The notes below the pieces were generated by a model that ran no database searches, had not been told where the DNA came from, and saw only the letters and a list, made by a program, of their open reading frames with translations. From the NCBI GenBank assembly GCA_017525525.1, contig JAFXSQ010000065.1, forward strand, positions 1 to 58,671: a DNA stretch of 58,671 bases. The letters run 5' to 3'. Origin of the DNA: Lachnospiraceae bacterium. GTDB taxonomy: Bacteria > Bacillota > Clostridia > Lachnospirales > Lachnospiraceae. The position numbers and the translations under genes are program-made. Positions 4,357-7,652 of the stretch are shown piece after piece; position 1 is the first letter of the stretch, and each line of letters starts with the position of its first letter.

Positions 4357-4584
4357 ATGACAAAAGAAGAATTCCTGAATCTGGCGAAGGACAATAACTG
4401 GGATGAAGAAAAGGACAAAGAGGTTTTAGACATACTGTTTAAGCTGCATGATGCAAGCGAACAGGGCGAAAAAATAACAAATCATCGTGAAAAACACGGT
4501 ATTAATGGTCTTGATATTGTAGTCTTATCGAAAGACCTCCGACAGGGCAGGGTGCTCTGCAGGAGGTCTTTTTTGAGATGCTAA
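4357..4584 (+). CDS. Small acidic protein of unknown function; frame runs through a terminator
   Basis: A 75-codon frame with a good ribosome site (AGGAGG, 10 nt before ATG 4357). Residues 1-45 are helical and charged (MTKEEFLNLAKDNNWDEEKD...), as in a small soluble protein. From codon 58 onward the frame passes through the stem-loop at 4531-4574, so the last residues (KDLRQGRVLCRRSFLRC) are dictated by the hairpin and differ in character from the rest. The gene has probably lost its natural 3' end, or the transcript ends inside the frame. I do not recognise the family. It may be the last gene of the siroheme operon or a separate unit. Confidence 0.45.
   Translation: MTKEEFLNLAKDNNWDEEKDKEVLDILFKLHDASEQGEKITNHREKHGINGLDIVVLSKDLRQGRVLCRRSFLRC
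4531..4574 (+). terminator. Intrinsic terminator, 10-bp stem with T-run
   Basis: AAAGACCTCC at 4531-4540 pairs perfectly with GGAGGTCTTT at 4562-4571 and is followed by six T (4569-4574). An inner GCAG/CTGC pairing tightens the loop. It closes the + strand operon, yet lies inside the open frame of the small gene at 4357. Confidence 0.85.
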
Positions 4585-4651
4585 ACTTTGATTTTTAGCA
4601 CATCCCTGTTTTTCGTAAATAAATATTTTCCGCGGATTACTATAGCGCTTT

Positions 4652-5449
4652 TTACCAGCGGCTCTTAAGTATATCGTCCTTTAAATATAAGTTTCCCATT
4701 ACATCTTTCTTTATCGGGATTAATTGCTGCTTTTTAACCATATATGAGATATTCTGTCTTGAGCACGACAGGATTTCGCCGGTTTCGGAGGTATCCATGA
4801 TGTTATTCCTTGCAAAAGCCTTAAAATCATTTTTCGTTACATTAAGCTTTTCACCGGCACTATATAATACCTGAGCAGGGATATCGATTGAGTCATTGAA
4901 GGTTAGATAGTAACCTCCGGCCCCTAACCGGATAGATCCAAACAGCTTATCATTAGCAATGATCTTGTCTACTCCGTTAACATCCCTTAATTCGTTCAGA
5001 TCAATCCTTCTTGCTGTATCATTTGCGAAAAAACATATGCAGGTTCTGCCTTCTGTTGCAAATGCACCCGAAAGGTTCTTATTCATTCTGCTTTGAACAT
5101 ATCCGGGCAAGGTATCTGTCCTTTTAACAGACATACCGTCCTGAGATGATCTGCCTTCGGATATCTCCATAAACTTCATTTCATCATATTCTAACAGTTT
5201 ATGGTTCTTTAGAATCATGCCAATGTTTTGCCTTCCGCTCGGTATAACTCTTTCCTTTACCCACAAAAAGCTGATATCCCTCGGAATTGTATATATTCCC
5301 TTCTTTACAAAACCGCTGAAAAGAAGCGGTGCGGTCCACTCATCAATCGAGTCTTTAAGCTCAACTATAAAGCATTTGTCCTTTTCGTAATATAGCAGAC
5401 AACCTATCTCAAGCCTGTTATCATTGTCATAGATTTCATAACTTTTCAT
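4652..5449 (-). CDS. HipA-kinase partner protein with DUF2442-like and C-terminal HTH domains
   Basis: A 265-residue soluble protein. Residues about 40-110 (FLWVKERVIPSGRQNIG, then LLEYDEMKFM...GRSSQD) resemble a segment I associate with proteins encoded beside HipA-like kinases in Firmicutes. Residues about 121-190 follow the DUF2442 pattern: a basic/acidic strand pair (RRIDLNEL), then KLFGSIRLGAGGYYLTFND and a LYSAGEKL end. Residues 220-262 (ETGEILSCSRQNISYMVKK, then GNLYLKDDIL) look like an excisionase/MerR-type helix-turn-helix. It is the second gene of a minus-strand pair and overlaps the kinase gene by 14 nt. It probably binds the two repeats in the promoter and may restrain the kinase; both are inferences. 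I know of no named family with this exact domain order. Confidence 0.7.
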   Translation of the reverse strand: MKSYEIYDNDNRLEIGCLLYYEKDKCFIVELKDSIDEWTAPLLFSGFVKKGIYTIPRDISFLWVKERVIPSGRQNIGMILKNHKLLEYDEMKFMEISEGRSSQDGMSVKRTDTLPGYVQSRMNKNLSGAFATEGRTCICFFANDTARRIDLNELRDVNGVDKIIANDKLFGSIRLGAGGYYLTFNDSIDIPAQVLYSAGEKLNVTKNDFKAFARNNIMDTSETGEILSCSRQNISYMVKKQQLIPIKKDVMGNLYLKDDILKSRW

Positions 5450-6272
5450 ATGTTTTATACCTCGAATAAATCATATCCCATAATTTATCGATATGTTGCT
5501 TGGATAAAACTTTATCCAACCCTTCAAATATTGAAGCCTTATCCTTCTTGTTCAGCTTTCCTTCAAATAGATTTCTTTCTTTTATAAGAGAGAGATTATC
5601 GTAACACGAAAACCCTCCGATAAAGTTCTGACAACGCTTATCTTCGCTTATATCATACTGCTCAACTTCCTGTTCCGTTATACAAGAATACATAAGCGAA
5701 AGACCGTGATCAAAGAGCGGTGCCAACCGTATTGTTTTTAACCGCGGATTTCTTAAAACCTCTATATTGGCGCCGTGTCTGTCTCGGTTGAGTATTATAT
5801 AATCAACTGCAAGCATCACATCAATATATTTCTGCCATCCCATTCTTACACAAAAATCGTAATGCGACTCACCTATCAAATGATTAACTGTATAATAATT
5901 GTCCAACGCGGCCTTGCTCTCTCCGGCTTTCTTAAAATCTTCCGAACAACACAGATATGTCGTGTACTCCCTTCCGTCTATTTCTATTACGGCATTTATC
6001 AGTTGGTAGTGAATATGATCGACTTTCAAGATATTTAATAATCTGTCAACAATTATTTCATTCACACATTCATGCCCCACTACGCCATTGATCTGATCAA
6101 AATCAGACAGTTTGTAATATTTCTTGATTCCATCAAGTGTGGATTCTGACTTTAAAAATGTTCCTGCAGTTCCACTGGAGTTCCTGATATGTGACCACTT
6201 AAGGTATGTCAAATCTTGTTCTTCCTGAATAATATCTGTAGTAAACAATAAATAGTCCTCCTCTTGAAACAT
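5436..6272 (-). CDS. HipA-like (CtkA-type) protein kinase
   Basis: A 278-residue kinase of the HipA/PI-kinase-like fold. A loop SSGTAGTFLKS ends in a candidate ATP-contact lysine, K41. The catalytic loop is LNRDRHGAN (residues 161-169, D164 and N169), and the metal-binding motif is LFDHG (D188). It is shorter than E. coli HipA (about 440 residues) because the N-terminal regulatory part is missing, as in CtkA and HipT. Related kinases phosphorylate themselves and translation factors such as GltX. ATG 6272 has no ribosome site. TTG 6248 lies 8 nt after GAGGAGG (6263-6257 on the minus strand) and may be the true start, giving 270 residues. The downstream partner gene overlaps by 14 nt. The promoter with two repeats is just upstream. 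Confidence 0.75.
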   Translation of the reverse strand: MFQEEDYLLFTTDIIQEEQDLTYLKWSHIRNSSGTAGTFLKSESTLDGIKKYYKLSDFDQINGVVGHECVNEIIVDRLLNILKVDHIHYQLINAVIEIDGREYTTYLCCSEDFKKAGESKAALDNYYTVNHLIGESHYDFCVRMGWQKYIDVMLAVDYIILNRDRHGANIEVLRNPRLKTIRLAPLFDHGLSLMYSCITEQEVEQYDISEDKRCQNFIGGFSCYDNLSLIKERNLFEGKLNKKDKASIFEGLDKVLSKQHIDKLWDMIYSRYKTYEKL

Positions 6273-6288
6273 TTGTCGAGCGTCAAAT
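6271..6288. repeat. Operator-like 18-bp repeat, proximal copy
   Basis: ATTTGTCGAGCGTCAAAT, a partial palindrome (ATTTG...CAAAT), differs at two central positions from the copy at 6312-6329. It overlaps the presumed transcript start and ATG 6272. The centre-to-centre distance to the other copy is 41 bp, close to four helical turns, which would put two bound proteins on one face of the DNA. Confidence 0.65.
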
Positions 6289-6298
6289 AATATAATCC

Positions 6299-6327
6299 AT
6301 TGTAATCGATTATTTGTCAGGCGTCAA
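6299..6327 (-). promoter_or_regulatory. Promoter of the HipA-like module
   Basis: Read on the minus strand: -35 TTGACG (6327-6322), 17-bp spacer, -10 TACAAT (6304-6299). Transcription would begin near 6292, about 20 nt before ATG 6272 or 44 nt before TTG 6248. The -35 box is inside one of the two 18-bp repeats, a common plan for autorepression. Confidence 0.75.
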
Positions 6328-6329
6328 AT
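6312..6329. repeat. Operator-like 18-bp repeat, distal copy over the -35 box
   Basis: ATTTGTCAGGCGTCAAAT, with ATTTG...CAAAT ends as in the copy at 6271-6288. It contains the -35 hexamer of the kinase promoter, so a bound protein would block RNA polymerase. Confidence 0.65.
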
Positions 6330-6441
6330 GTTTTTTCTTCGCCGTATTCCTGTATAGATATTTGGGCTTCTCAAAAAAACAAGGTTTGATTATAATTATT
6401 TCGGGTACTTCGACAGGCGACGAAAGGAAGAATAACGAAAA

Positions 6442-7407
6442 ATGATACTTGTATACTATCTGATCATGATCAATGTGCTGGCTTTTTTGCTGTACGGCGC
6501 AGATAAGAAAAGAGCCGAGCGGGGAAAATGGAGGACTCCGGAGGCTGCACTTATATTTGTGGCGGTCATCGGCGGTTCCGTGGGCGCTTTTCTCGGCATG
6601 CATGTGTTTCATCACAAGACGAAAAAAAAGAAGTTCTATGTAACGATCCCGGTATTGATGGCGCTTCTTTTTTGTGCCGTTTGTTTTTGCTTATATCAGA
6701 ATTATCACATCGTCGTGACCACATATGAGTACGAGGCGGATTTCGATATGAAGATAGTGCAGATCTCGGACCTGCATAATCAGATGTTTGGTTTCGGACA
6801 GAAGAAGCTGCTTGGGAAGATTGACGATATCGCACCGGATATCATCGTTGTGACGGGGGACGTCCTGGATTCGAATCATACATCGTACAGGTTGGCGCTT
6901 GACTTCTTTGAGGGTGCGGTGAAGATCGCACCGGTTTACTATGTTACGGGTAATCACGAAATGTGGTTGAAGCGCGACCATCGGGAAAAATACGAAAGCT
7001 TTCTGGCTGAGGCGGAGAGAGTGGGCGTGGTGCTTCTCGATAAAAAGACGGTCTCACTTGAGCATGTGGTTTTGGCCGGGGCCGGAGATGACTCGCATAC
7101 CGTACCGTATGATTGGGAAGCATCAAAGCTTAAGATACTGCTTTCGCATGACCCGGCGCAGTACGAGGCTTACATAGAGAGCGGTGCGGATATTGTCTTT
7201 ACCGGACATGTACACGGCGGACAGATCATCCTTCCCGGAAAGGGCGGAGTGTTCTCCCCGGATTTCACATTTTTTCCGGAAATATATGAGGGTGAACACC
7301 ACTATGGCAGTATGGTGATGTATGTAAGCAGGGGACTCGGGAACAGCGTGCTGCCGGTGAGGATCAACAATTACCCGGAGATTGTAGTGCTTTCAATCCA
7401 TAAGTAG
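6442..7407 (+). CDS. DUF1294-metallophosphoesterase fusion membrane protein
   Basis: A 321-residue protein. Residues 1-65 carry the whole DUF1294 signature (YGADKKRAERGKWRTPE, GGSVGAFLGM, FHHKTKKKKF) with two membrane helices. A third helix (about 67-88) leads to a calcineurin-like phosphoesterase domain from about residue 103. Metal ligands are visible: QISDLHNQ, TGDVLDS, TGNHEMW, LSHDPAQ and GHVHGGQ. The C-terminal domain is most like YkuE/YaeI-type phosphoesterases, which act on lipid or nucleotide phosphates at the membrane. DUF1294 normally stands alone, so the fusion tethers the enzyme to the membrane. It diverges from the kinase module across about 170 bp. The substrate is unknown. Confidence 0.85.
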   Translation: MILVYYLIMINVLAFLLYGADKKRAERGKWRTPEAALIFVAVIGGSVGAFLGMHVFHHKTKKKKFYVTIPVLMALLFCAVCFCLYQNYHIVVTTYEYEADFDMKIVQISDLHNQMFGFGQKKLLGKIDDIAPDIIVVTGDVLDSNHTSYRLALDFFEGAVKIAPVYYVTGNHEMWLKRDHREKYESFLAEAERVGVVLLDKKTVSLEHVVLAGAGDDSHTVPYDWEASKLKILLSHDPAQYEAYIESGADIVFTGHVHGGQIILPGKGGVFSPDFTFFPEIYEGEHHYGSMVMYVSRGLGNSVLPVRINNYPEIVVLSIHK

Positions 7408-7652
7408 GATATGGGCCGGAAGGATTCAGGGCATGGCAGATTATTCTGGTTTATGGTTTTATTGCCACAACCCTTAGCTTATGCGAAAGGGGGTGATCAC
7501 CGGGTTTGTATCGCTTATTTTCCCGAGTGAACTTTGCGGGAAAGGGTGAGACATTTAAGCTTGCCGATCAGAACAAGATTATTTCCTTGTAATTTGCACG
7601 AGATTGATTTACAATGACAATAGTTGCAGACAGTGGAGGTAATTAACGTCTA
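7408..7652 (+). other. Intergenic region with a possible decayed short frame
   Basis: No complete gene is apparent. An anti-SD-like stretch (AAGGGGGTGATCACC, 7486-7500) precedes a frame reading LYRLFSRVNFAGKG... that stops after about 28 codons. It has no recognised homologue and may be a remnant. GGAGGT near 7635 serves the next gene. Confidence 0.3.

Follow-up and report, generated by a model that had tools for sequence, protein, structure and literature searches.

A HipA-family kinase module in Lachnospiraceae whose predicted neutralizer and autorepressor share one HipS–DUF2442–winged helix-turn-helix polypeptide

Analysis of a 58,671-nt stretch of DNA from a Lachnospiraceae bacterium (assembly GCA_017525525.1, contig JAFXSQ010000065.1; hereafter the window, to whose positions all coordinates refer unless a locus is named) revealed a two-gene module on the reverse strand (4652–6248), in which the gene for a HipA-family kinase of about 270 aa is followed by the gene for a 265-aa partner protein that joins a HipS-like domain, a DUF2442 domain and a winged helix-turn-helix (wHTH). 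We consider it likely that this is a type II toxin–antitoxin (TA) module with neutralizer and autorepressor in one polypeptide. A first-pass annotation had already suggested that regulator and neutralizer are combined in this way, and fold, homologues and operator support it, with the functions themselves predicted. The computed support comprises both folds, intact catalytic motifs, the gene pair, its overlap, and an operator together with its tie to the three-domain form of the partner; the module is real and conserved, and probably functional.

The partner (4652–5449, reverse strand, as are all features of the module) was delimited by open reading frame (ORF), alignment and fold comparison. 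Its composition had been read from the letters alone as a HipA-associated N-terminal segment, a DUF2442-like domain and a C-terminal HTH, and fold comparison backs all three parts: a HipS-like domain at residues 1–112 (5114–5449), DUF2442 at residues 121–204 (4838–5089) and a wHTH of the MerR/HTH_17 type at residues 216–265 (4655–4804). Homologues add sequence support for DUF2442 and the wHTH only, not for the HipS-like part. Conservation was counted in an alignment set of 35 kinases and 35 family partners, three of the latter being HipS-only and hence incapable of matching the other two domains; the DUF2442 Pfam model is matched by 12 of the 35 partners (E≤1, best 4.3e-9) and HTH_17 by 23 (E≤1, best 7.3e-8). 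The window partner itself falls short of a match to the DUF2442 model and has only weak, unlikely matches in NCBIfam, where the match seen most often across the family, in 11 of 35 members at E≤1, is ‘excisionase family DNA-binding protein’. HIRAN was not found for the 35 partners among the Pfam matches listed (25 of 27 families, E≤1), and a family missing from the VIA-align lists of the structural comparison is not thereby excluded. Weak sequence matches of the N-terminal domain to a viral protein were taken as chance.

Within the HipS-like domain, a P-x-x-R-Q-N motif is invariant across the 35 rows at P70, R73, Q74 and N75, and is the obvious candidate for a contact to the kinase. R73 may stand in place of Trp65 of HipS, which is a guess based on a HipS motif. 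DUF2442 is the fastest-changing domain, with a mean identity of 31 % over 32 loci versus 57 % for the kinase, 50 % for HipS and 41 % for the HTH. One relative (L048, 546–1505; the same gene as in L020) carries an insert of about 43 residues between HipS and DUF2442 that appears repetitive and of low complexity by eye, which suggests a flexible linker at this position.

The longest ORF of the kinase extends to an ATG at 6272 (278 aa), although translation probably begins at a TTG at 6248, giving a 270-aa protein (5436–6248). This start is preferred because a GAGGAGG ribosome-binding site, proposed from sequence and homologue comparison, lies immediately 5′ of the TTG (6257–6263), because homologue alignments begin only at residues 7–20 of the longer form, and because L002, a near-identical copy, has the upstream ATG in another reading frame. 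The LNRDRHGAN and LFDHG motifs, initially described as intact, do both lie within the kinase ORF (5436–6272). N154, D156, R157, H158, G159 and N161 of the catalytic motif NRDRHGAN (residues 154–161; 5766–5789) are invariant in all 35 kinases, as are F179 and D180 of the metal-binding motif LFDHG (residues 178–182; 5703–5717). A candidate Gly-rich loop, SSGTAGTFLK (residues 24–33 of the 270-aa form; 6150–6179), has G29 and K33 invariant and S24, S25 and G26 conserved in at least 90 % of the 35 kinases; by analogy with HipT and HipA, as treated in the part of PMC10627512 used here, S24 and S25 are candidate autophosphorylation sites. All 35 kinases match HipA_C at E≤1 (best 6.4e-8); the window kinase reaches 16.9 bits, short of the curated cutoff (30.5), and has no match in NCBIfam. 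Structural comparison supports a HipA-type kinase fold, with PI4KII also among the matches. Kinase fold and HTH were both seen when the proposed fold check was run, the catalytic loop of the kinase being poorly modeled. In the alignment of the kinase model to HipA, approximately the first 120 residues of HipA remain uncovered, thus indicating a short kinase without N-subdomain 1.

The kinase ORF and the partner ORF overlap by 14 nt when the kinase stop codon is counted, exactly as first noted. The overlap measures 14–32 nt in 35 of 36 loci and precisely 14 nt in 17 (starts were chosen by script, five of them corrected by hand), so the genes are adjacent and overlapping as expected of a type II TA module. 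A search for the same pair in other genomes, which the first-pass annotation had recommended, placed a HipS-bearing partner directly 3′ of the kinase at every one of 51 non-redundant kinase loci, a set from which matches of fewer than 150 profile positions and near-duplicates (more than 93 % shared 4-mers) had been removed and in which the near-copy L002 represents the window kinase. The partner is HipS–DUF2442–HTH in 43 of these loci and HipS alone in eight. By our tally, 44 of the 51 were also found by the kinase-based search; the other seven were reached solely through the partner profile and therefore could not have lacked a partner. The count also leaves out 101 of 397 sampled genomes that have only weaker kinase matches (E>1e-30), many in frames near 400 aa. 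No orphan kinase occurs among the 51 loci. In genome G153 (L067) the partner gene is orphaned and decaying: it is interrupted by an internal stop, and the retrieved stretch gave no kinase match. L024 has a shortened partner-like ORF. A three-gene split into kinase, HipS and separate HTH was considered and rejected: the two stand-alone HTH proteins inspected, at L070 and L071, have endolysin-like and further ORFs as neighbors (by eye) but no kinase genes. No HipB-like gene was seen by eye beside the pair at the eight HipS-only loci, where no family search was run on the neighbors. One of these loci (L079) has an excisionase-like ORF of 71 aa upstream, and at L021/L053 ORFs resembling a HicA/HicB pair by eye lie no more than about 120 bp downstream of a HipS-only pair.

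Upstream of the kinase, the sequence contains a predicted promoter, TTGACG-17-TACAAT (6299–6327), and two copies of an 18-bp palindrome: operator 1 (ATTTGACGCCTGACAAAT; 6312–6329), the TTGACG of which is the −35 element, and operator 2 (ATTTGACGCTCGACAAAT; 6271–6288), which lies between the −10 element and the TTG start. At up to two mismatches the palindrome occurs in just two places in the genome, both of them upstream of this kinase, and a reversed-pattern control gave no match in the same genome. A first, stricter operator pattern was found at 39 of the 43 three-domain loci and at none of the eight HipS-only loci. A looser core (TTGWCNNNNGWCAA; TTGWC-N4-GWCAA with at most one mismatch) lies within 130 bp upstream of 42 of the 43 three-domain loci and within 200 bp of all 43, and at neither distance upstream of any of the eight HipS-only loci; elsewhere in the same loci 28 occurrences were counted over 226,656 bp, which gives an expectation of 0.016 per 133 bp. 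The left half of the site coincides with a −35 hexamer that has a −10 element at 16–18 bp in 40 of the 43 loci, against 9.5 % of sampled positions with such a −10. Two sites are present in 30 of the 43, and 17 of these 30 pairs are spaced 41–43 bp apart, about four helical turns. The palindrome thus seems to be a putative operator of the three-domain modules, tied to that form and new here. Loci of the window's genus (L095–L097) have a variant, TTGACA-NN-TGTCAA, in two close copies that together make up an extended perfect inverted repeat.

A single branch of the kinase tree, with moderate support (93/78; recovered in 92 % of 200 bootstrap trees), sets all 43 three-domain loci apart, and the HipS-only loci branch outside it. 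Most simply, a HipS-only module would have captured a DUF2442–HTH cassette once while the operator arose in parallel, although gain versus loss is not proven because the tree carries a midpoint root, which is not an inferred one, and because the HipS-only rows include long branches that meet. Within the three-domain clade the parts co-vary (distance correlations of 0.71–0.80 over 32 loci), which shared descent alone could give.

The module was first contrasted with systems that pair full HipA with a separate HipB or divide the work among HipB, HipS and HipT, and was suspected to be an undescribed architecture. It does differ from hipBA and hipBST, but the contrast was incomplete: hipJS and hipIN, as described in the text of Gerdes et al. 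2021 (PMC8262856), are already two-gene systems of a short kinase and a HipS-bearing partner. Because they share the gene order and the HipS partner, the module is a variant within a described kind, set apart by the DUF2442–wHTH fusion and the operator. No description of a HipS–DUF2442–HTH variant was found in the literature searched, beyond the reach of which lay most subscription papers. Gerdes et al. list ten gene organizations of HipA-homologous kinases, and DUF2442 or a HipS–HTH fusion is in none of them as that text describes them; our comparison rests on these descriptions. In hipJS, as in the present module, a short kinase without N-subdomain 1 is encoded first and a HipS-bearing putative antitoxin next, but there HipS stands alone with no DNA-binding part, whereas here DUF2442 and a wHTH are fused to it and an operator is present; the eight HipS-only relatives look hipJS-like and are without operator. 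In hipIN the kinase again comes first and the two-domain putative antitoxin has an N-terminal HipS-like part, followed by HIRAN where the present partner has DUF2442 and the wHTH (PMC8262856, as far as its text goes).

The hipBST systems of E. coli O127:H6 and Legionella likewise combine a short kinase, a separately encoded HipS fold as neutralizer and an HTH regulator, but do so with three genes in the order B–S–T and a HipB homologous to that of hipBA, whereas here there are two genes, the kinase comes first and a MerR-type wHTH is fused to the HipS part. No separate hipB-type gene adjoins the window pair, which is flanked on the opposite strand by ORFs of 321 aa (6442–7407, metallophosphoesterase-like by eye) and 75 aa (4357–4584). 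Full-length HipA of hipBA has its own N-subdomain 1, a fold that here sits in the partner. DUF2442-type folds are also known from NE0471 (PDB 2auw) and from stand-alone DUF2442–HTH proteins (L072 and L023 have DUF2442 and then an HTH), but the latter lack a HipS part, and two tested carry HTH_59 and HTH_3. In the literature searched, DUF2442 together with HipA turned up just one table entry, in the part of PMC12654330 consulted, which lists a DUF4160/DUF2442 TA pair and thus a DUF2442 protein in a TA setting, with DUF4160 and not a kinase as the other member. Gut-phage HipA-family kinases are described in PMC8008677, the part of which used here mentions no such partner.

A mechanism is proposed where the kinase acts as the toxin, phosphorylating a cellular target, by analogy an aminoacyl-tRNA synthetase, so that growth would stop. 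The HipS-like domain would dock on the kinase beside the Gly-rich loop and block ATP use, as HipS does to HipT; in the portions of PMC10627512 and PMC9325769 drawn on here, that inhibition involves HipS Trp65 in E. coli and a P-loop shift in Legionella. The C-terminal wHTH, probably dimeric, would bind TTGAC-N4-GTCAA over the −35 element and repress the operon, also occupying the second copy of the palindrome that most relatives have nearby, and DUF2442 would link both functions through dimerization or sensing. A fall in partner level would then free the kinase and derepress the operon. More speculatively, DUF2442 could be the sensor of this one-polypeptide control unit, with a signal such as a phage product or metabolite lifting kinase inhibition and repression at once; the origin of the module would then be a single capture of a DUF2442–HTH cassette by a hipJS-type HipS, with a gain of the matching operator in the promoter.

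Several points weigh against the TA assignment. Toxicity of the kinase, its neutralization by the partner, DNA binding, repression and the target are all predictions. PI4KII outranks HipA and HipT among the structural matches of the kinase, whose model is weak at residues 156–182. The HipS identity of the N-terminal domain rests on fold, since no sequence-level match to HipS or HipA, PDB chains included, was found in the searches made; for the partner, Foldseek by itself gives nothing at E≤0.001, and a search for a residue-level alignment to HipS, in which a counterpart of Trp65, the inhibitory residue of E. coli HipS, might have been located, gave none. On the regulatory side, 14-mer matches at up to two mismatches are not significant in the window alone (2 found, 2.1 expected), and the operator argument therefore rests on the genome-wide and cross-species results. 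The looser core was picked post hoc, once four of the 43 loci had failed the stricter pattern, and at three of the 43 a −10 at a suitable distance is missing. Because operator and HTH occur only on one side of a single branch, roughly one evolutionary event may underlie the tie between them; the Fisher P of 8e-7 for operator versus HTH ignores this shared branch and cannot be counted as independent cases.

Phage defense by abortive infection, with DUF2442 or the HTH sensing infection and freeing the kinase, is a possible though doubtful role for a module of the same build, and would be compatible with the TA assignment; such a function has been proposed for hipIN and hipL in the text of Gerdes et al. 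(PMC8262856). The closest model of the kinase in the defense library PADLOC is that of PDC-M03A, a HipA-like kinase (1.7e-8). PDC-M03B, which aligns to some HipS-only partners over the first approximately 115 positions, is matched at E≤0.01 by four of six HipS-only partners and by the one three-domain relative tested; the L044 partner scores 7.5e-4. The scores are weak, however, the window partner matches no PADLOC model at E≤1, and PDC-M03 is a candidate that is not known to be a tested system. Distribution is patchy: of 397 genomes sampled from the family, 33, the window's among them, have a kinase match below E 1e-30. The pair is present on one viral contig, and at the end of another (L057, 47–5862) the partner gene lies beside terminase-like and transposition-like ORFs (by eye), but a phage collection gave no partner match and only weak kinase matches, the window genes surrounding the pair look housekeeping-like by eye, and DUF2442 as a sensor is unsupported.

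A non-toxic regulatory pair, in which the kinase phosphorylates the partner to set its DNA binding or oligomerization, appears unlikely, as HipS neutralizes a toxic kinase in the characterized systems (PMC10627512 and PMC9325769, in the parts used) and all 51 loci pair the kinase with a partner. That another regulator binds the palindrome while the partner HTH acts elsewhere is very improbable: DNA binding by the partner is only predicted, but the genome's only two sites are both at this promoter, and the site accompanies the HTH at all 43 loci that have one but occurs at none of the eight without. Least credible of all is a decayed, functionless remnant. Decayed copies do exist, as in G153 and L024, whereas the window genes are intact, the catalytic residues are invariant in 35 kinases, and two operators and a promoter have been kept.

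If the TA assignment is correct, a HipS neutralizer with no DNA-binding part has become its own repressor through domain capture, and a single gene has come to do what HipB and HipS do as two genes on the antitoxin side. The operator makes the regulation directly and cheaply testable in a family of rumen and gut bacteria, and DUF2442, a domain with no known function, gains a concrete setting for study.

The host genome (3.19 Mb, 75 contigs) has a single kinase match at E≤0.001. In the window's genus such matches occur in 16 of 37 genomes, ten of them below 1e-40, and one genome of that genus (G180) is without the kinase. Close homologues with names come from Lachnospiraceae, Butyrivibrio and an uncultured Clostridiales. 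Partner matches at E≤0.001, some only partial, were obtained in 16 of 150 genomes; in a sample of the class, eight of 391 genomes have a match to most of the partner, including two from outside the window's family and one whose match carries an internal stop. Of 1275 locus pairs, just 17 have a flanking ORF in common (with ORFs antisense to the kinase and partner genes excluded, and with short flanks at many loci); the two genes therefore seem to move together as a unit. The pair also occurs on plasmid pNP95 of Pseudobutyrivibrio xylanivorans (L111), where both genes are annotated as hypothetical and one operator site lies upstream; the partner there is annotated from an internal start at 5030 of that locus, and its frame is open upstream to 4832, yet without the first residues. 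A 2.9-kb block of the window (4481–7423), comprising the pair and the metallophosphoesterase-like ORF, is 98.4 % identical to L002 and G799 (L090), which may be one organism. Outside the block, the fetched L002/G799 sequence has no match to the adjoining window DNA, which would fit a relocation of the block or a rearrangement of its surroundings.
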